In this document: in pieces, positions 1,599 through 45,800 of the stretch | Layout of the letters: every line of letters starts with the position of its first letter | Numbering within the stretch: position 1 is the stretch's first letter | Assembly (NCBI GenBank): GCA_024277595.1 | Contig: JAJRUV010000092.1 | Location: 1 to 45,800, forward strand | Direction of reading: 5' to 3' | DNA: 45,800 nucleotides | Source of the DNA: Gammaproteobacteria bacterium | Lineage (GTDB): Bacteria; Pseudomonadota; Gammaproteobacteria; Thiohalospirales; Thiohalospiraceae | The notes under the pieces: generated by a model | Databases searched by the model: none | Told to the model about the DNA's origin: nothing | What the model saw: the letters and a program-made list of their open reading frames with translations, nothing else | Program-made: the position numbers and the translations under genes

Positions 1599-1665
1599 AG
1601 GTCTGCCGGTAGTTCAGTCCCGGGTCGTTCGCAACTATCCCGCTCGTCCCTTTCTTTGTTATCCT

Positions 1666-1817
1666 GTAACTACTCAGTTCACCCCTGAAATCCGCCATTT
1701 CTGCGTTAAAAAATGGTCAGTTACCCATGTAAACTCCCGTTTTTCGCCTTGAACTGACGAATTTCAGGGGCAATCTGAGTAGTTACCGGCAATATTGACT
1801 ATTCGCTGAGTAGTTAC
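1666..1817 (+). mobile_element. MITE copy 1 (152 bp) with 8-bp target duplication
   Basis: The element starts GTAACTACTCAG and ends CTGAGTAGTTAC, a perfect 12-bp terminal inverted repeat. It is flanked by the direct repeat GTTATCCT at 1658-1665 and 1818-1825 (8/8). Inside are CCCCTGAAAT (1682-1691) and its reverse complement ATTTCAGGGG (1761-1770), plus an extra internal copy of the right end at 1775-1786. It has no coding capacity. Three further copies lie at 23195, 28766 and 30567 in the same orientation. A GTAA start and 8-bp duplication match known properties of IS66-family ends, so non-autonomous IS66-type origin is inferred. Confidence 0.85.
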
Positions 1818-1836
1818 GTTATCCTTATGAACTCGT

Positions 1837-15031: not shown

Positions 15032-16168
15032 ATGAAAAATTCAAAATATTTTAGCCACATACTGGCCATGCTGGCCGGTCTGGCAATGACAGGAGGAATG
15101 GTTTCCAATGCCTCTGCGGCGGGTACTGCTGCGGGAACTACCATCAGCAACACCGCTACTGTTGGTTATCAGGTCGGGAGTATTGCGCAAACACCCGTGA
15201 CCAGTGCTGCTGCGACCTTTGTGGTAGATACCATGATTGATTTGACGGTGGCCACTACTGATACGGCAACGGTGAAGGTCACGCCTGGTGCCACCAACCA
15301 GGTGTTGCAATTTACTGTAACCAATACCGGTAACGCCATCCAGGATTTTAGCCTGACCCGGATTGCCCAAAATGGAGGAACCGGCAAATTTGGTGGTACG
15401 GATAACTTCGATGCCACCAACGTCGGTATCTTTGTTGAAAGTGGTGCTACCCCCGGTTATCAGCCCGCGGAAGATACTGCCACCTTCATTGACGAGCTGA
15501 GTGCCGATACCGCCAGAACCGTATACATCGTGGTCGATATTGCGTTGAGCCAGGCCAATGGTGATATCTCCTCTCATCACCTGATTGCTACAGCAGGGCT
15601 GGCTGGTGCCATTGGAGTTGAAGATCCTGCAGTCACTGAAGACAGTGGTACAGCAGACAACAAGGACACAGTGCAGACTGTGTTTGCTGATGGTGATGGT
15701 GATGGCGCTGGCAGTATTGATACGGCTACAAACGGCAAGCACTCCGACCAGAGTGACTTTGAGGTGCAGTCAGCAACGTTGAGCATTAGCAAATTATCAA
15801 CGGTGATTAGTGATCCATTCAGCAGCACCAACCCCAAGCGTATCCCCGGTGCAGTGGTGGAGTACACCATCACCATCGACAACAGCACCGGCGCGGCGGA
15901 TGCCACCAGCATCGTACTGACCGATCTGCTGGATACCACCAATCTGACCTTTTCGGATAGTGCTGCATATTCCGGGAATGATATTGAACTCAACATAAAC
16001 AGTGGCACCATAACAACCTATATCGGTACTGATGCGGATGATGATGGCGGTGATTTTGGTGTCATTACTGCCAACACCCTCACTGTTGACTTTAATGCTG
16101 CTGGAGCTGGTTTCACAGTACCAGCCGGTCAGTCGGCAACGGTGAAGTTCCGGGTTACCATTAACTGA
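15032..16168 (+). CDS. Secreted DUF11-domain surface protein
   Basis: The 378-residue protein has a signal peptide (residues 1-29, ending SNASA). Its N-terminal domain (30-75: TTISNTATVGYQ...TFVVD) also begins the giant envelope protein next door. A DUF11-like domain with NTGNAIQDFSL follows, and a C-terminal domain at about 250-378 starts at STVISDP and contains NPKRIPGAVVEYTI and ATSIVLTD. The chain stops right after VKFRVTIN. The same C-terminal domain ends two larger proteins at 23369 and 25547. Start ATG 15032 is chosen for GGGGGAAC upstream and the signal peptide; the longer frame lies inside the previous gene. It has no transmembrane anchor, so it is exported or bound to another surface component. 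Confidence 0.75.
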   Translation: MKNSKYFSHILAMLAGLAMTGGMVSNASAAGTAAGTTISNTATVGYQVGSIAQTPVTSAAATFVVDTMIDLTVATTDTATVKVTPGATNQVLQFTVTNTGNAIQDFSLTRIAQNGGTGKFGGTDNFDATNVGIFVESGATPGYQPAEDTATFIDELSADTARTVYIVVDIALSQANGDISSHHLIATAGLAGAIGVEDPAVTEDSGTADNKDTVQTVFADGDGDGAGSIDTATNGKHSDQSDFEVQSATLSISKLSTVISDPFSSTNPKRIPGAVVEYTITIDNSTGAADATSIVLTDLLDTTNLTFSDSAAYSGNDIELNINSGTITTYIGTDADDDGGDFGVITANTLTVDFNAAGAGFTVPAGQSATVKFRVTIN

Positions 16169-23111: not shown

Positions 23112-23194
23112 AAACGTTTGTATTTTCTCCCCGTTCCAGTGTGTAAATTCAGGTCAGTTCGAGTAAGACACAGCCAGAGAAAGGGATAAATGAT

Positions 23195-23346
23195 GTAACT
23201 ACTCAGCTCACCCCTGAAATCCGCCATTTCTGCGTTAAAAAATGGTCATTTACACATGTAAACTTCCGTTTTTCGCCTTGAACTGACGAATTTCAGGAGC
23301 AATCTGAGCAGTTGCCGGCAATATTGACTACTCGCTGAGTAGTTAC
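23195..23346 (+). mobile_element. MITE copy 2 (152 bp) with near-perfect 8-bp duplication
   Basis: It starts GTAACTACTCAG and ends CTGAGTAGTTAC, with flanks TAAATGAT (23187-23194) and TAAATAAT (23347-23354), 7 of 8 identical. It shares the tail CGGCAATATTGACTA with copy 1, so these two form one subtype. It ends 22 bp before the start of the next adhesin gene and therefore forms nearly all of that gene's leader. Confidence 0.85.
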
Positions 23347-23368
23347 TAAATAATTTCGATATTTCTCC

Positions 23369-25513
23369 ATGACGGATAATAATTTTCATATAACCAGACA
23401 GAGTGTAATTGATGATCAGCCAGTATTACCTGACTGCAATATTGAATCACAGGCAACAGAAAAAAATTTTCGGTTCGTGATGTTGACGGTGGTTTTACTG
23501 GCGATTATGTTAATGCCAACCAGTGAGGCTAATGGTGCTGTTTTGTATGTGCAGAAAGTTGGGGAGTTTTCTGCTGGATACAGTATGTTTGGTGTAGGAG
23601 ATTTTGTTGTTCCTGTTTTAAATGGCGTTTCGGCAGGAAACAGCATCATTGTGACATTTGTTTGGAGGGCGCCATCGTTTACCCTTTCATCGGGCCCAGA
23701 CAAATGCGAAGACACACAAGCCAACAGCTATGCTATCGATATAACCCTCTATGACAGCAGCACAGGTATGCATACAACGATATGTTCTGCCCATAACGTT
23801 ACGCCTCTGAGCACTAGCGATACTATTACCCTGTCTTCCAGCGTCATCGTCGCCAGTGGCGCGGCGGCAACGGCTCATGAGTTTTCCGGCCTGGCCTCCT
23901 CTTCTCCCCTTGATCAAACTGCCAGCGCGAGTGGGAGTTCCACTACTCCCTCTTCGGGCAACACTGCAGTGACAACGCAGGCGGATGAGCTACTCATTGG
24001 TGCCATCGGTGTTGGCGGGCCACCGACAGATGGTTTTACTCCTGGTGGCGGTTATACCGCATTAACCTCTGCAGGTTTCAGCGGTGGTTTTGAAGGCACA
24101 ATCCGTCCTGAATACAAAATTATTTCGGTAGCTGGAAACTATCAGGCTGATGGTGTCCTGAATCCTTCACGTAGCTGGGGTGCTGCAATCGCTACCTACA
24201 AGGCTGCCGCATCAACGACAAATATCACCCTCTCCGGTACTCTGTACAGCGACGAGGGAATCACTCCACTTGCCGGCCAAACCGTGCGTCTGCTGGTAGA
24301 TGGCGCCAGTGCAGGAACGGCTACCACCGATGCTTCCGGAAATTACGCCATTACTGCTGCCGTGGCCGCCGGTGATCAGTATATTCCGCTACTGGTTTAT
24401 GTGGATGATGGCCCGGTCGTTGGCACTACCGTGATGGTGCTGGATTCGACATTCCTCACTGCCATTGGCGATCTGGACATCTATGCCGACCATCTTGTTG
24501 TCCGCCGGGAGGGCGGTTATACAGCAATAAGCAACGGGGATATCAGTTACGCGGACGGGAACTATGCAGATACGGATATTTTATATTATGTGCCCGGTAG
24601 TGATCTCACTGTCCGTGGAACCAACACCGAGTTATATATTCCCAACGGCCACAGCTATACTCCGGGTGGCAACGTCACTACCGCCCACATCCGGATTGAA
24701 GGCACATTGACGGGAGGCAATAACACATTTACAGTCAGCGGCGACTGGACTAACAGTGATGTTTTTGTTCCCGGCACCTCGACAGTCATTCTGGACGGCG
24801 CAGGCCAGACATTGAACGGTACCACCACTTTTTACAACCTGACCAAGACGGTAACCAGCGCCGATACGCTGATTTTTTCCGCCGGCTCCACCCAGACCGT
24901 CACCGGGTCGGCAACACTGCAGGGGAGCAGCAGCCAGCTACTCAGCCTGCGCTCAGGTACTCCAGGTACGCGCTGGAACTTCAATCTTGCCTCGGGCGCC
25001 ACCAGAGCCATCTCCCACGTGGATGTGCAGGACTCCGATGCCTCCGGCTCGGATGCCGGTCTGCTCGAAATCAATCCGGCATTTTCCACCGACAGCGGCA
25101 ACAACGTGAGCTGGTTCGGAAATGCGAATATTACGGTTGTAAAGTCCAGCACGGTTATTTCCGATCCGGTAAACGGCACTGTAAATCCGAAACGCATTCC
25201 CGGTGCAGTGGTGGAGTACAGCATTCTTGTGAGCAATACATCGGGCGCGCAGGCGACCAATCTGACGGTTACGGATGATTTGGGCGCGGAGTCGGCCAGC
25301 CTGAATTTCGAGACAAACGGTTATGCGGCTGGCAAGGGGGTTCGGGTGATTGCACCCAATATCAACGGGGGTGTAGTGCTTGACTTGACCAATGCCGCTG
25401 ATGCGGATCAGGGTGACTATGGCGTCACCGCTGCCGATACCGTGACGGTGGGCGGGATTGTTCTCGATGGGGGAGAACAGGCCGAGATCAGGTTCCGGGT
25501 AACCGTCCGGTAG
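23369..25513 (+). CDS. Large secreted adhesin-like protein with C-terminal DUF11-type domain
   Basis: The 714-residue protein has an N-terminal signal sequence after a long lead (hydrophobic LTVVLLAIMLM at about 39-49, then EANGA). Residues 58-285 are a Ser/Thr/Gly-rich domain (EFSGLASSSPLDQTAS type). A carboxypeptidase-regulatory-like domain (LSGTLYSDEGITPLAGQTVR) follows at about 285-370. Adhesin-type beta repeats (SGDWTNSD, LIFSAGSTQTVTGSATLQG) lie at 455-580, and the shared C-terminal domain (STVISDP, NPKRIPGAVVEYSI, ending FRVTVR) spans 588-714. ATG 23369 has no visible ribosome binding site; an alternative is ATG 23480 at the signal helix. It is followed closely by a paralogue. A surface or extracellular adhesion role is inferred. 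Confidence 0.65.
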   Translation: MTDNNFHITRQSVIDDQPVLPDCNIESQATEKNFRFVMLTVVLLAIMLMPTSEANGAVLYVQKVGEFSAGYSMFGVGDFVVPVLNGVSAGNSIIVTFVWRAPSFTLSSGPDKCEDTQANSYAIDITLYDSSTGMHTTICSAHNVTPLSTSDTITLSSSVIVASGAAATAHEFSGLASSSPLDQTASASGSSTTPSSGNTAVTTQADELLIGAIGVGGPPTDGFTPGGGYTALTSAGFSGGFEGTIRPEYKIISVAGNYQADGVLNPSRSWGAAIATYKAAASTTNITLSGTLYSDEGITPLAGQTVRLLVDGASAGTATTDASGNYAITAAVAAGDQYIPLLVYVDDGPVVGTTVMVLDSTFLTAIGDLDIYADHLVVRREGGYTAISNGDISYADGNYADTDILYYVPGSDLTVRGTNTELYIPNGHSYTPGGNVTTAHIRIEGTLTGGNNTFTVSGDWTNSDVFVPGTSTVILDGAGQTLNGTTTFYNLTKTVTSADTLIFSAGSTQTVTGSATLQGSSSQLLSLRSGTPGTRWNFNLASGATRAISHVDVQDSDASGSDAGLLEINPAFSTDSGNNVSWFGNANITVVKSSTVISDPVNGTVNPKRIPGAVVEYSILVSNTSGAQATNLTVTDDLGAESASLNFETNGYAAGKGVRVIAPNINGGVVLDLTNAADADQGDYGVTAADTVTVGGIVLDGGEQAEIRFRVTVR
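24734..25180 (+). repeat. Duplicated adhesin segment, copy A
   Basis: This stretch aligns without gaps to 27338-27784 at a constant offset of 2604 bp. In the best part, around 25021-25080, only a few bases in 60 differ. It encodes the end of the beta-repeat region and the start of the shared C-terminal domain in both paralogues. Recent duplication or gene conversion is likely. Confidence 0.75.
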
Positions 25514-25546
25514 TTTCCGGAACCTTTGCACGAAAAGCAGACGGGG

Positions 25547-28111
25547 ATGATAAAGCGATATTGTAAAAAGGCAGATTACGGACAGGGCTGTCCTGTCGGG
25601 TTATGGAACTGCGTGAGTGGAAATGCCGGGGAGACGAAAAACCGAAACGGATGGTGGTTTGTCTGTCTGCTCCTGCAACTGTTTGTGGTTCTGCTGTTTT
25701 CTGCGGAAGTAGCGGGGGCTGCGGTTTTGACTTTGCACCCGTCAGGATCGGCCAGCGGTGATGGTGTTGATTATATAGGCGGCACGGCGGCCGATGCACT
25801 GGACAGCAATGATGAATGGGACTCCTATGGCCAGTCTCTCAACTCGACGAATGATTACTATCTGGAAATGGATGATGCCGCTGCAAGTGGCGTGATTAAC
25901 TCAGTTGTGGTCAGGGCTGTGGTTGCCGAGGCTGGCTATCCATCGGGAACCAGCATGTTCCGTATGGGGATAAAGACCAATGGAGCGGAATATTTCAGCA
26001 GCTCCATAAGCCAGTCTGACCCCGCTTTTGTGTTGCACAGCGGAGATGTTTACACAACGAACCCGGGAACAGGTTCAGCCTGGACATGGAGTGAAGTCAA
26101 TAATCTGGTGGCAATCGTTGACCATGAAAACGATAACCAGATGCGGGTTACCGAGCTGTATGTCGAGGTTGACTATACTCCGGCGGCTACCACCATTATC
26201 CTCTCCGGCACGCTTTACAGCGATGAGGGAATTACCCCGGTTTCCGGCCAGACCGTGCGGCTGGTTGTGGAGGGCGTCAGCACAGGAACAGCCATTACCG
26301 ATACCAGTGGCGGTTATTCCATCTCTGCCGTGATCAGTCCCGCCAACATCTGGTATATTCCCTTGCTGGTGTATGTCGATGACGGTACCGTTGATGCCAC
26401 CACCGTCACGACCATGGATTCGACGCTTAACTCCGCAACCATTTCCGGCCTGGACCTCTATGCGGATCATCTCGTCATCCGCCAGGATGCGGGAAGTGCG
26501 CCACTGGATACCGGCGATATGCATAATGCAAAAAACGCCTACTCCGATATAGATGTTCTTTACGTGATTTCATGGCCTGATACAACGGTAACCGGAGCCG
26601 GTACCGAGTTATATATTCCCGGTGGTTACAGTTATACACCACTCGGCAATGTTGCCACCCCTCATATGAAAATTCTGGGCACCCTGACGGCCGGCAGCAA
26701 TACTTTCACCGTCAGCGGCAACTGGGATCACACCAGTGGTACATTCAATTCTGATACCAGTACGGTGAATTTCACCGGGACGGGAACCATCAGGATCGAC
26801 GTTTCCAACTGGTGGACAAAACCTTTCTACAATGTCAATGCTGCCGCAGCGGGGCAGACAACAACGGTTGTGCGTGGCATGACCGTGGAAAATCTGCTTG
26901 TACTGGGAACAGGGGTTGTTGCCGGAGGAGAGGTTTTGCTTGACAGGGATGGCGGCACACCCCTGGTTACTACGGGTGCAACACTTTCGAATTATGCGGT
27001 CAAATATGCTCCCCGAACCAACCCGGTTAACGTGGCAGCCACAGATTATCCGCGTCTGTGGCTTTCATCATCCGGCCCGAGTATTACTTTCACACTACTC
27101 GGCGATATTATCTGCAACAAACTTTGGCTTATGGGTAACTATGGAGATGAGTCAGTTCTGGATACGGCCAGTCACTCCATTACCTGCAATCTGCTGGAGG
27201 TCGGGTTTGCCTCGATGCCTGACAGATACGGAAAACTTTTGCTCAACAATTCGTCTGTTGACCTCGGCGGCTTGATCATTCATCCCTCCGATAGTGGTGG
27301 CATGAACCAGGTAGACGCTGGCAGCGCGACCATTAATGTCAGCGGTGACTGGACCAACAGTGATACCTTTACAGCCGGAACCTCGACGGTGAATTTCAAC
27401 GGTGCGGGCCAGATATTGAACGGCTCTACCACTTTTCACAACCTGACCAGGACGGTAACCGGAGCTGATACGCTGACTTTTGCCGCCGGCTCCACCCAGA
27501 CCGTCACCGGGTCAGCGACATTGCAGGGGAGCAGCGGCCAGCTGCTCAGTCTGCGCTCAGGCATTCCGGGTACGCGCTGGCACTTCAATCTTGCCGCAGG
27601 CGCCACCAGCTCCATCTCCCATGTGGATGTGCAGGACTCCGATGCCTCCGGTTCGGATGCCGCTCTGCTCGAAATCAATCCGGCATTTTCCACCGACAGT
27701 GGCAACAATGTGAGCTGGTTCGGCAATGCAAATATCACCGTGGTTAAATCCAGTGCGGTCATTTCCGATCCGTACAACGGAGTCACCAATCCAAAACGCA
27801 TCCCTGGCGCCATAGTGGAGTACACTATACGTGTCACCAATACCGCCGGAGCGCAGGCGACCAACGTTACGATTACCGATGATCTGAGTGCAGAGTCGGC
27901 GCGGCTGAGTTTTGTGCCAGATGGCTATGCTGTAGCGGACAAGGGAATTCTGGTGACTGCGCCCAACATCAACGGTGGATCGGTGCAGTCCCTGACCAAT
28001 GCAGTTGATGCAGATCAGGGCGAATATGCCTCATCTACCGTGACGGTGAAAGGCATCGTCCTGAATGCAGGTGAACAGGCTGTGGTTACGTTCCGGGTAA
28101 CTATCCGGTAG
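25547..28111 (+). CDS. Large secreted adhesin-like protein, paralogue of the preceding gene
   Basis: The 854-residue protein has a long basic lead then a hydrophobic signal helix (FVCLLLQLFVVLLFSA, ending VAGA). Its own N-terminal domain spans about 60-205. The regulatory-like domain LSGTLYSDEGITPVSGQTVR at about 213 and the beta repeats (TELYIPGGYSYTP, SGDWTNSDTF, LTFAAGSTQTVTGSATLQG) are shared with the paralogue. The C-terminal domain at 728-854 has NPKRIPGAIVEYTI and ends FRVTIR. I chose ATG 25547 over an in-frame TTG seven codons earlier. Both starts have weak ribosome binding sites (GACGGGG). The gene begins 33 bp after its paralogue, so they are probably one transcript. An extra segment at about 400-590 is absent from the paralogue. 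Confidence 0.65.
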   Translation: MIKRYCKKADYGQGCPVGLWNCVSGNAGETKNRNGWWFVCLLLQLFVVLLFSAEVAGAAVLTLHPSGSASGDGVDYIGGTAADALDSNDEWDSYGQSLNSTNDYYLEMDDAAASGVINSVVVRAVVAEAGYPSGTSMFRMGIKTNGAEYFSSSISQSDPAFVLHSGDVYTTNPGTGSAWTWSEVNNLVAIVDHENDNQMRVTELYVEVDYTPAATTIILSGTLYSDEGITPVSGQTVRLVVEGVSTGTAITDTSGGYSISAVISPANIWYIPLLVYVDDGTVDATTVTTMDSTLNSATISGLDLYADHLVIRQDAGSAPLDTGDMHNAKNAYSDIDVLYVISWPDTTVTGAGTELYIPGGYSYTPLGNVATPHMKILGTLTAGSNTFTVSGNWDHTSGTFNSDTSTVNFTGTGTIRIDVSNWWTKPFYNVNAAAAGQTTTVVRGMTVENLLVLGTGVVAGGEVLLDRDGGTPLVTTGATLSNYAVKYAPRTNPVNVAATDYPRLWLSSSGPSITFTLLGDIICNKLWLMGNYGDESVLDTASHSITCNLLEVGFASMPDRYGKLLLNNSSVDLGGLIIHPSDSGGMNQVDAGSATINVSGDWTNSDTFTAGTSTVNFNGAGQILNGSTTFHNLTRTVTGADTLTFAAGSTQTVTGSATLQGSSGQLLSLRSGIPGTRWHFNLAAGATSSISHVDVQDSDASGSDAALLEINPAFSTDSGNNVSWFGNANITVVKSSAVISDPYNGVTNPKRIPGAIVEYTIRVTNTAGAQATNVTITDDLSAESARLSFVPDGYAVADKGILVTAPNINGGSVQSLTNAVDADQGEYASSTVTVKGIVLNAGEQAVVTFRVTIR
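27338..27784 (+). repeat. Duplicated adhesin segment, copy B
   Basis: Counterpart of 24734-25180 at a constant offset of 2604 bp with no indels seen. The flanking upstream domains of the two genes are much less alike, so the high identity is local. Confidence 0.75.
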
Positions 28112-28162
28112 CTCCCGGATCTCTTGCGCGGAAAAACAGGTGAGGAGTGATAAATCAACGTT

Positions 28163-28759
28163 ATGAAACAGAATAATCTCGATAAACAAGTGTTAGCGGC
28201 TCTTTGCTACCAGGGCGTCATTCCCGTTGAGTGGGAGCTGTTAAAGCAGCCCGGTGATGCCGTATCGCAGCAAGGCTATCAGCATGACAATACCGTTCTG
28301 CTTCAGGGGTTGCTTGCGGTGGATGAGCAACCGGTTATGGAGCATGATGAGGAGCTTTCGTCACTGGGCCACGAGCTGCAGCGCATCGATCACAAATTAA
28401 ATCTGGTTCTTGAGTTGTTGAGCCAGACGCTGCGTAGTTGGCGCAGTCTGCCCGTACCGGTGCCTGTCAGACTGACGGTTGACGGGGTGGAGTGGGATTC
28501 CGGGCAGGAGCTGCCCGTTGGTGAACCGGTTCTGATCAAGCTTTATCTCAGTCCGGTATTCCCCAACCCCTTTATCGCCAGCGGCAGAGTGCAATCCTCT
28601 CACCAAGGGGATGGTTGCAGTAACTCGGCATCTGTTTGTTTTGATGACCTGGGCGGGCAGGTTCGTGATGTGCTGGAAAAAGTGGTTTTCCGTCAGCATC
28701 GGCGAGAGGTGGCTCGCGCGAGATCAGCACGGCCGGGAGGCAGTCGGAGTCAGGGTTAA
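28163..28759 (+). CDS. Atypical PilZ-domain-like protein upstream of flrA
   Basis: The 198-residue protein has a helical N-terminal part with a coiled-coil-like stretch (HELQRIDHKLNLVLELLSQ), then a beta-rich C-terminal domain: VPVRLTVDGVEWDSGQELPV, GEPVLIKLYLSPVFPNPF, SGRVQSS, and the final helix VRDVLEKVVFRQHRREVARA. This order resembles atypical (tPilZ-type) PilZ proteins that bind or have lost cyclic di-GMP; the canonical RxxxR and (D/N)xSxxG motifs are not clear, so binding cannot be assumed. The position just before the FleQ/FlrA-type master regulator fits a flagellar control role. The ribosome binding site is poor (GAGGAG lies 14-19 bp upstream). The C-terminus is Arg/Ser-rich and may be poorly folded. 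Confidence 0.5.
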   Translation: MKQNNLDKQVLAALCYQGVIPVEWELLKQPGDAVSQQGYQHDNTVLLQGLLAVDEQPVMEHDEELSSLGHELQRIDHKLNLVLELLSQTLRSWRSLPVPVPVRLTVDGVEWDSGQELPVGEPVLIKLYLSPVFPNPFIASGRVQSSHQGDGCSNSASVCFDDLGGQVRDVLEKVVFRQHRREVARARSARPGGSRSQG

Positions 28760-28765
28760 TCACGC

Positions 28766-28917
28766 GTAACTATTCAGCTCACCCCTGGAATCCGCCATTT
28801 CTGCGTCAACAAATGTTCATTTACCCGTGTAAACTTACATTTTTCGCCTTGAACTGACGAATTTCAGGGGCAATCTGAACAGTTACATACTCATTTTCAA
28901 CTATGCTGAATAGCTAC
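28766..28917 (+). mobile_element. MITE copy 3 (152 bp) with near-perfect 8-bp duplication
   Basis: It begins GTAACTATTCAG and ends CTGAATAGCTAC, with flanks AATCACGC (28758-28765) and AATCATGC (28918-28925), 7 of 8 identical. Relative to copies 1 and 2 both ends changed C to T and G to A together, keeping the ends complementary. Its tail (CATACTCATTTTCAACTATG) is shared with copy 4. It overlaps the PilZ-like gene only in its left target repeat. Confidence 0.85.
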
Positions 28918-29051
28918 AATCATGCGCCGTCAGAGCGGCCAACAGCGGTTTCCAGGTTTAACTATTCTTATCCGTGCTCGCTATGACCACCTGAATCCAG
29001 TGGGTTCCGGCGGGATATTGGGAAGACATAATATTTTTTTGTGACAATATT

Positions 29052-30566: not shown

Positions 30567-30717
30567 GTAACTATTCAGCTTACCCCTGAAATCTGCCATT
30601 TCTGCGTTAAAAATGATCATTTACCCGTGTAAACTCACATTTTTCGCCTTGAACCGACAAATTTCAGGGGCAATCTGAACAGTTACATACTCATTTTCAA
30701 CTATGCTGAATAGTTAC
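30567..30717 (+). mobile_element. MITE copy 4 (151 bp), no matching target duplication
   Basis: It starts GTAACTATTCAG and ends CTGAATAGTTAC, with internal CCCCTGAAAT and ATTTCAGGGG. It has one base less than the others in the A-rich centre. Flanks AACTGCAG and GAGCCCTT do not match, unlike the other three copies, so one side was probably rearranged after insertion. It begins 14 bp after the flrA stop. Confidence 0.8.
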
Positions 30718-45537: not shown

Positions 45538-45708
45538 TTTCCGGTTCTCCTTGTTGCGGTGAATTTTCATACTATCAATTTCAGTTTGGAACCTCATATA
45601 CTCAAACAACTTCAAAATGCAGATACGACTGATTCCGGTTTTTGAAAATTGTCATTGATATTGCTGTTTACTAGTACTCCGTCAAGGTGATAAATCAGGA
45701 TACAGCGT

Positions 45709-45798
45709 TCCTGTGGTGTTTCGCAGCAAGGCGCAGTGTGCAGGCAATGGCTGTCGCCCTTGTCAAACACTGCAACGCCGCAGCGGGACACCACAGGA
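45709..45798. repeat. Palindromic repeat element at the right edge
   Basis: TCCTGTGGTGT (45709-45719) and ACACCACAGGA (45788-45798) form a perfect 11-bp inverted repeat. Inside, GGCGCAGTGT and ACACTGCAACGCC add further imperfect pairing. The element may start further left at CTAGTACTCCG (45671) and its end is probably past the window. It looks like a dispersed non-coding palindrome, not a gene. Confidence 0.5.
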
Positions 45799-45800
45799 GC

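Follow-up and report, generated by a model that had tools for sequence, protein, structure and literature searches.

A high-copy MITE family with IS66-type ends carries a structured core also found in MITEs with unrelated ends

Bacterial MITEs are usually viewed as decayed copies of a single insertion sequence (IS), and many of them are deletion derivatives. Bacterial MITEs in general, among them Correia elements, QMITE1/2 of Coxiella burnetii (PMC5896051) and R0/R2 of P. fluorescens SBW25 (PMC2718517), are short, non-coding, bounded by terminal inverted repeats, present in high copy number and moved in trans, a description that appears to fit the elements reported here as well. We analyzed a 45,800-nucleotide stretch of DNA (herein the window; GenBank JAJRUV010000092.1, our contig C60) from a 2.5-Mb draft gammaproteobacterial genome in 196 contigs (GCA_024277595.1). 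The window contains four copies of a MITE that very probably belongs to a high-copy family moved in trans by an IS66-family transposase, with a pre-existing structured core as its interior.

Direct reading of the sequence places the four copies, each 151 to 152 bp long, on the forward strand at 1666-1817 (copy 1, 152 bp), 23195-23346 (copy 2), 28766-28917 (copy 3) and 30567-30717 (copy 4, 151 bp), with the start positions and lengths given by an earlier, sequence-only reading of the window. As that reading also held, the copies are non-coding; they lack a transposase ORF and have 13-bp terminal inverted repeats, the combination that defines a MITE. The GTAAC...GTTAC ends it had assigned to all copies are general, except that copy 3 ends in GCTAC. 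In copy 1, the left terminal repeat GTAACTACTCAGT (1666-1678, forward strand), which is common to IS66 element ends, agrees with GTAACTACTCAGC at 12 of 13 bases; the structured core (1693-1763, forward) is followed by an inner copy of the end on the reverse strand (1775-1786; element position 121) and by a 31-bp tail (1787-1817, forward) that closes with the true right terminal repeat, CGCTGAGTAGTTAC. The cores of the other copies, all on the forward strand, lie at 23222-23292, 28793-28863 and 30594-30663. Positions 1 through 121 of the MITE self-fold (DNA fold z-scores of -7.7 and -6.4), in keeping with the nested inverted repeats first noticed, and the true right end is carried by the tail beyond position 121. 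Copies 1 and 2 are of subtype C/G and copies 3 and 4 of subtype T/A. The co-variation of the ends on which this division was based extends to the whole genome (C..G, 14; T..A, 38; mixed, 5; Fisher p = 9e-9), where it tracks two tail subtypes.

Three of the four copies show an 8-bp target duplication, as had been claimed. Copy 1 has GTTATCCT on its left (1658-1665) and again on its right (1818-1825), a match of 8/8; the flanks of copy 2 (TAAATGAT, 23187-23194; TAAATAAT, 23347-23354) and of copy 3 (AATCACGC, 28758-28765; AATCATGC, 28918-28925) match at 7/8; those of copy 4 (AACTGCAG and GAGCCCTT) match at 2/8, and there is no duplication. Among 76 distinct full copies from the window's genome and its relatives, the duplication is exact in 42, at least 7/8 in 57 and at most 5/8 in 17. 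Mean flank identity is 0.82 at a length of 8 and 0.28 to 0.36 at lengths of 4 to 7 and 9 to 12, so that the enrichment falls on length 8 alone. The inner end at position 121 has nearly the same 12 bases as the outer ones; it was considered as an alternative right end and rejected, as none of the 76 copies has a duplication of 6/8 or better there.

Flanks joined with a single copy of the duplication were then used to look for empty sites, and three cases could be interpreted. The joined flanks of one copy (L216) correspond to a second locus of the same genome (L109) with 94% identity over 162 bp across the junction and one AATCATCC; at another (L024), an uninterrupted Paraglaciecola relative (L199) continues ungapped across the AAAGCGTG junction; in the third (L083), one MITE is nested in another. 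For copy 3, no orthologous empty site exact to the base was obtained from relatives G003-G006, which lack the insert and have diverged flanks in which the junction cannot be placed so finely.

The duplications and empty sites signify mobility, which counts against the idea that the copies are kept primarily as a hairpin serving the host, such as a transcription terminator or an RNA stabilizer at gene ends, with transposition secondary. We consider this unlikely. Many copies do lie 15 nt or less from a stop codon, convergent gene pairs outnumber divergent ones around them (17 vs. 9), and copy 3 sits on the stop codon of a PilZ gene (28163-28759), which its left flank overlaps. However, such positions, including those just behind stop codons, are explained equally well by purifying selection against insertion into genes. 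Moreover, relative to co-directional genes the copies favor neither orientation (13 vs. 22, p 0.18), which argues against a strand-dependent role in host transcripts.

The 12-bp end motif occurs 181 + 172 times in the genome, compared with 12 + 5 times for a reversed-pattern control; with 353 occurrences against 17, the abundance sought by the sequence-only reading is not due to chance. DNA searches recovered at least 66 distinct copies, and if each copy contributes two or three ends, we estimate a total of ∼115 to 170. The family is present in all seven genus relatives searched (7/7), was not found in four genomes from other genera of the same family, and is abundant in one genome (G020) from another family of the class.

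Single-ORF IS66 elements (DUF6444 + DDE_Tnp_IS66), a group that we take to be ISBst12-like, bear the same 13-bp end, GTAACTAYTCAGC, as the MITE. PF03050 searches located the N-terminal part of an IS66 gene downstream of a GTAACTATTCAG end in one relative (L115 in G003) and a C-terminal part followed by CTGAATAGTTAC in another (L117 in G002). Pfam assigns DUF6444 and DDE_Tnp_IS66 to the first fragment and DDE_Tnp_IS66 to the second; both match the NCBIfam IS66 transposase model with scores below the whole-protein cut-off, as fragments would be expected to do. The G003 gene is interrupted by an ORF (L115, ∼1719-2696) that, read by eye, resembles a REP-associated tyrosine transposase. Complete IS66 elements of ∼1.7 kb with the same ends occur in other, distant bacterial genomes, and four of these have perfect 8-bp duplications (L128, L132, L161 and L192; one variant base in the ends of L128, one mismatch between the two ends of L161). 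In the window's own genome, a left IS66 end (L038) and a right one (L039, L118) are each located at the end of a contig, the pattern that a collapsed repeat should give; within this draft, the two ends at contig breaks are what was assembled, and no complete copy with GTAACTAYTCAGC ends was found. The same genome also carries IS66 genes on contigs C149, C38 and C79 (G000; L061-L063, L065), which were rejected as parent, as their GTAAGCG ends mark a different element.

IS66 genes with the same ends, together with the 8-bp duplications, thus support the mobilization by IS66 proposed earlier, and we infer that IS66 transposase performs the transposition. The earlier reading would have been refuted by a lack of 8-bp flank enrichment or of empty sites; the enrichment is strong, and empty sites were found. 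Because MITE and parent share only their 13-bp ends, an unrelated transposase of the same specificity might move the MITE instead. That a different 8-bp-duplicating family with GTAAC-like ends does so is highly improbable: the complete parent is missing from the draft assembly, which would leave room for such a mover, but both in two relatives and in distant genomes, these ends are found physically attached to IS66 ORFs. Under IS66 mobilization, a transposase supplied by a single-ORF element of ∼1.7 kb would recognize the two outermost occurrences of GTAACTAYTCAGC, left and right, ignore the near-copy at position 121 and insert at an 8-bp staggered cut. The outer ends of the MITE agree with the IS66 ends over 13 bases, and the sequence of the inner end is GTAACTACTCAGA or GTAACTGTTCAGA, with A rather than C as base 13; this base may be why the inner end is silent, although the left end of copy 1 itself has T there. 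A 206-bp unit in G003 (L119) has the MITE at its start, the last 50-odd bases of the IS66 element at its end and AAACAATG on both flanks. The simplest reading is that its MITE end and its IS66 end were mobilized together; it could also be an IS66 copy that was partly deleted after a MITE had inserted into it.

Comparison of the MITE with the IS66 parent shows no similarity beyond the 13- to 14-bp ends and no shared subterminal sequence. Following up a weak match in other families brought up a second MITE in this genome, with CAGGCTGTTGAAAAA ends (L064 1664-1803), that is 84% identical to the IS66 type over the central 44 nt only. Its end motifs occur 26 + 26 times in this genome, with YTAR flanks and the same core. 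When the loop pattern of the core was searched without structure, it matched in 12 of 185 genomes of the class, with zero matches to the reversed control in every genome. Elements of ∼120 to 165 bp with unrelated ends were read around these matches, and the core lies in short elements of at least seven terminal-repeat classes besides the IS66 type (at least eight in all): CAGGCTGTTGAAAAA; TCCTACTGTGTCACAAAGCG; GGGCACCTCTATAAATT and variants; GGGAACCTCTGATTAA and variants; GAGCGCTTTGCACGAA and GAGACCTTTGCACG; ACTGAAGGGGCTTCA; and AGAGCAGTCTAAAATC, with TCCTACTGTGTCACAAAG and GGGCACCTCTA also among the other end classes. Several have 4-bp YTAR flanks (TTAA, CTAG, CTAA, TTAG), a duplication that presumably resembles that of an IS5 subgroup; a search of three genomes for a parent IS with CAGGCTGTTGAAAAA-type ends yielded no parent, the ends that were inspected leading to MITEs and unrelated genes only. 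In three of the core elements (L221, L240 and L245), an extra hairpin-like stretch of ∼22 to 26 nt stands just before the core's CTCATTTAC.

The core, to which window positions 1693-1763 and their equivalents belong, consists of a conserved loop and compensating stems. In an alignment of 24 non-IS66-type cores found by sequence only (A2), 90.4% of cells are paired, compared with 82.2% after shuffling and at most 58% when slid, and 54 double-sided changes are seen where shuffles predict 16. A covariance model (R1) built from these cores, without any IS66-type copy, finds all four copies in the window (copy 1, 34.8 bits, E 4.3e-7; copy 2, 41.6 bits, E 6e-9; copy 3, 29.7 bits, E 1.1e-5; copy 4, 35.7 bits, E 2.4e-7); the best score in 190 kb of other sequence is 13.4 bits (E 1.2). 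The tool itself describes its E-values as rough; the argument rests on the bit scores and on the control. In 22 further elements (A4), the innermost hairpin is always paired despite base changes (TTTAC/GTAAA, CGTAC/GTACG, CATAC/GTATG, TTTGC/GCAAA, TTGAC/GTCAA), and the structure as a whole shows 105 double-sided changes against 32 from shuffles; as these elements were picked by a structure-aware model, this count leans toward structure, whereas that from A2 does not. The IS66 type lacks, symmetrically in both arms of the core, a 10-bp stem that the CAGGCTGTTGAAAAA type has. The pairing could be kept at the DNA or the RNA level, and Rfam 15 contains no credible match for the MITE or the core elements. 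At E up to 1e-3, the model has hits in 75 of 185 sampled gammaproteobacterial genomes, and at E up to 1e-6, in 72 of 299 genomes across the phylum; three plasmid records contain the core, which was not found in viral contigs, phages or genomes of E. coli.

These results bear on whether the MITE arose simply by internal deletion of IS66, with an interior of no independent history and a resemblance to other cores that reflects chance or hairpin convergence. The identity of its 13-bp ends with those of the parent would suit such an origin, as would the frequency of deletion derivatives among bacterial MITEs. Against this, parent sequence is absent from the MITE beyond the ends, R1 detects all four copies (E 6e-9 to 1e-5) while its control stays clean, and pairwise comparison with the genome's own CAGGCTGTTGAAAAA-type MITE gives 84% over 44 nt; we regard a deletion origin as improbable. 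On the sequence comparisons, the interior does not derive from the IS66 element. Because MITEs with dissimilar ends contain this hairpin core too, the most likely origin of the family is the acquisition of flanking IS66 ends by a core MITE that already existed. More tentatively, and with some doubt, the core might be the real long-lived unit, one that spreads through Proteobacteria by exchanging terminal repeats, is moved in turn by different transposase families (IS66 in this case, and elsewhere families that leave a 4-bp YTAR duplication) and is kept by its own function, specific to both sequence and structure, such as the binding of a host factor for replication or transposition.

Further repeats were seen near the MITEs and in the window. 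A second repeat of ∼186 to 198 bp with AACCTGAACTCGGGTTAAG ends has the same insertion point in the outermost bases of a MITE end in five of five cases (L012 1316-1501; L047 1652-1846; L048 1651-1848; L059 1651-1845; L089 2235-2429), and some of these show a 4-bp duplication (AGTT, AATT, AACT). The MITE end may be a target of this repeat; all five loci were picked for their MITE, which biases the adjacency, though not the exact position. On the reverse strand at 45690-45800, a hairpin repeat (fold z-score -4.5) has the core clamp GCGTT...GCCTTG with a different loop, and is followed by CGCTGTATCCTGATTTATCACCTTGACGGAGTACTAG, which partly recurs in L049 and L228. Long ORFs at 24729-28134 contain diverged tandem paralogous segments (repeat families D2-D6) that have a NPKRIPGAVVEYTI-like stretch in common, also present at 15830; two of the encoded proteins have no Pfam match.

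In the elements described here, the interior outlives the ends, with one folded core and its conserved loop bases residing within at least eight end classes. If this is true, MITEs are modular, and what keeps the core could be asked directly by deleting or transplanting it. The covariance model is also a ready annotation tool for repeats that lack an Rfam family.

A search of mainly open-access literature on IS66 and MITEs returned no description of an IS66-driven MITE, and IS66 goes unmentioned in a 2024 review of MITEs in prokaryotes; nor, within the same reach, was any recognizable instance of the core strings in a repeat context found. The novelty of both is accordingly provisional. The papers on the bacterial MITEs cited above name neither an IS66 mover nor a core common to MITEs with unrelated ends. 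R178, an intergenic repeat of P. fluorescens, is 101 bp long with an internal 11-bp inverted repeat and 9 to 28 copies in three strains (PMC2718517); compared by this description only, its size, inverted repeat and host range may fit a Pseudomonas form of the core. The CAGGCTGTTGAAAAA-type MITE and its relatives share the hairpin core of the IS66 type but differ in their ends, in a 4-bp YTAR duplication and in the extra stem. The single-ORF IS66 group shares with the MITE the 13-bp end and the 8-bp target duplication; its members carry an ORF, whereas the MITE has none and only the ends in common with them. Relative to these systems, the family is a mobile element of an ordinary, well-proved kind, with a mover, IS66, that we found undescribed in this role and a core that is unusual, widespread and structured.
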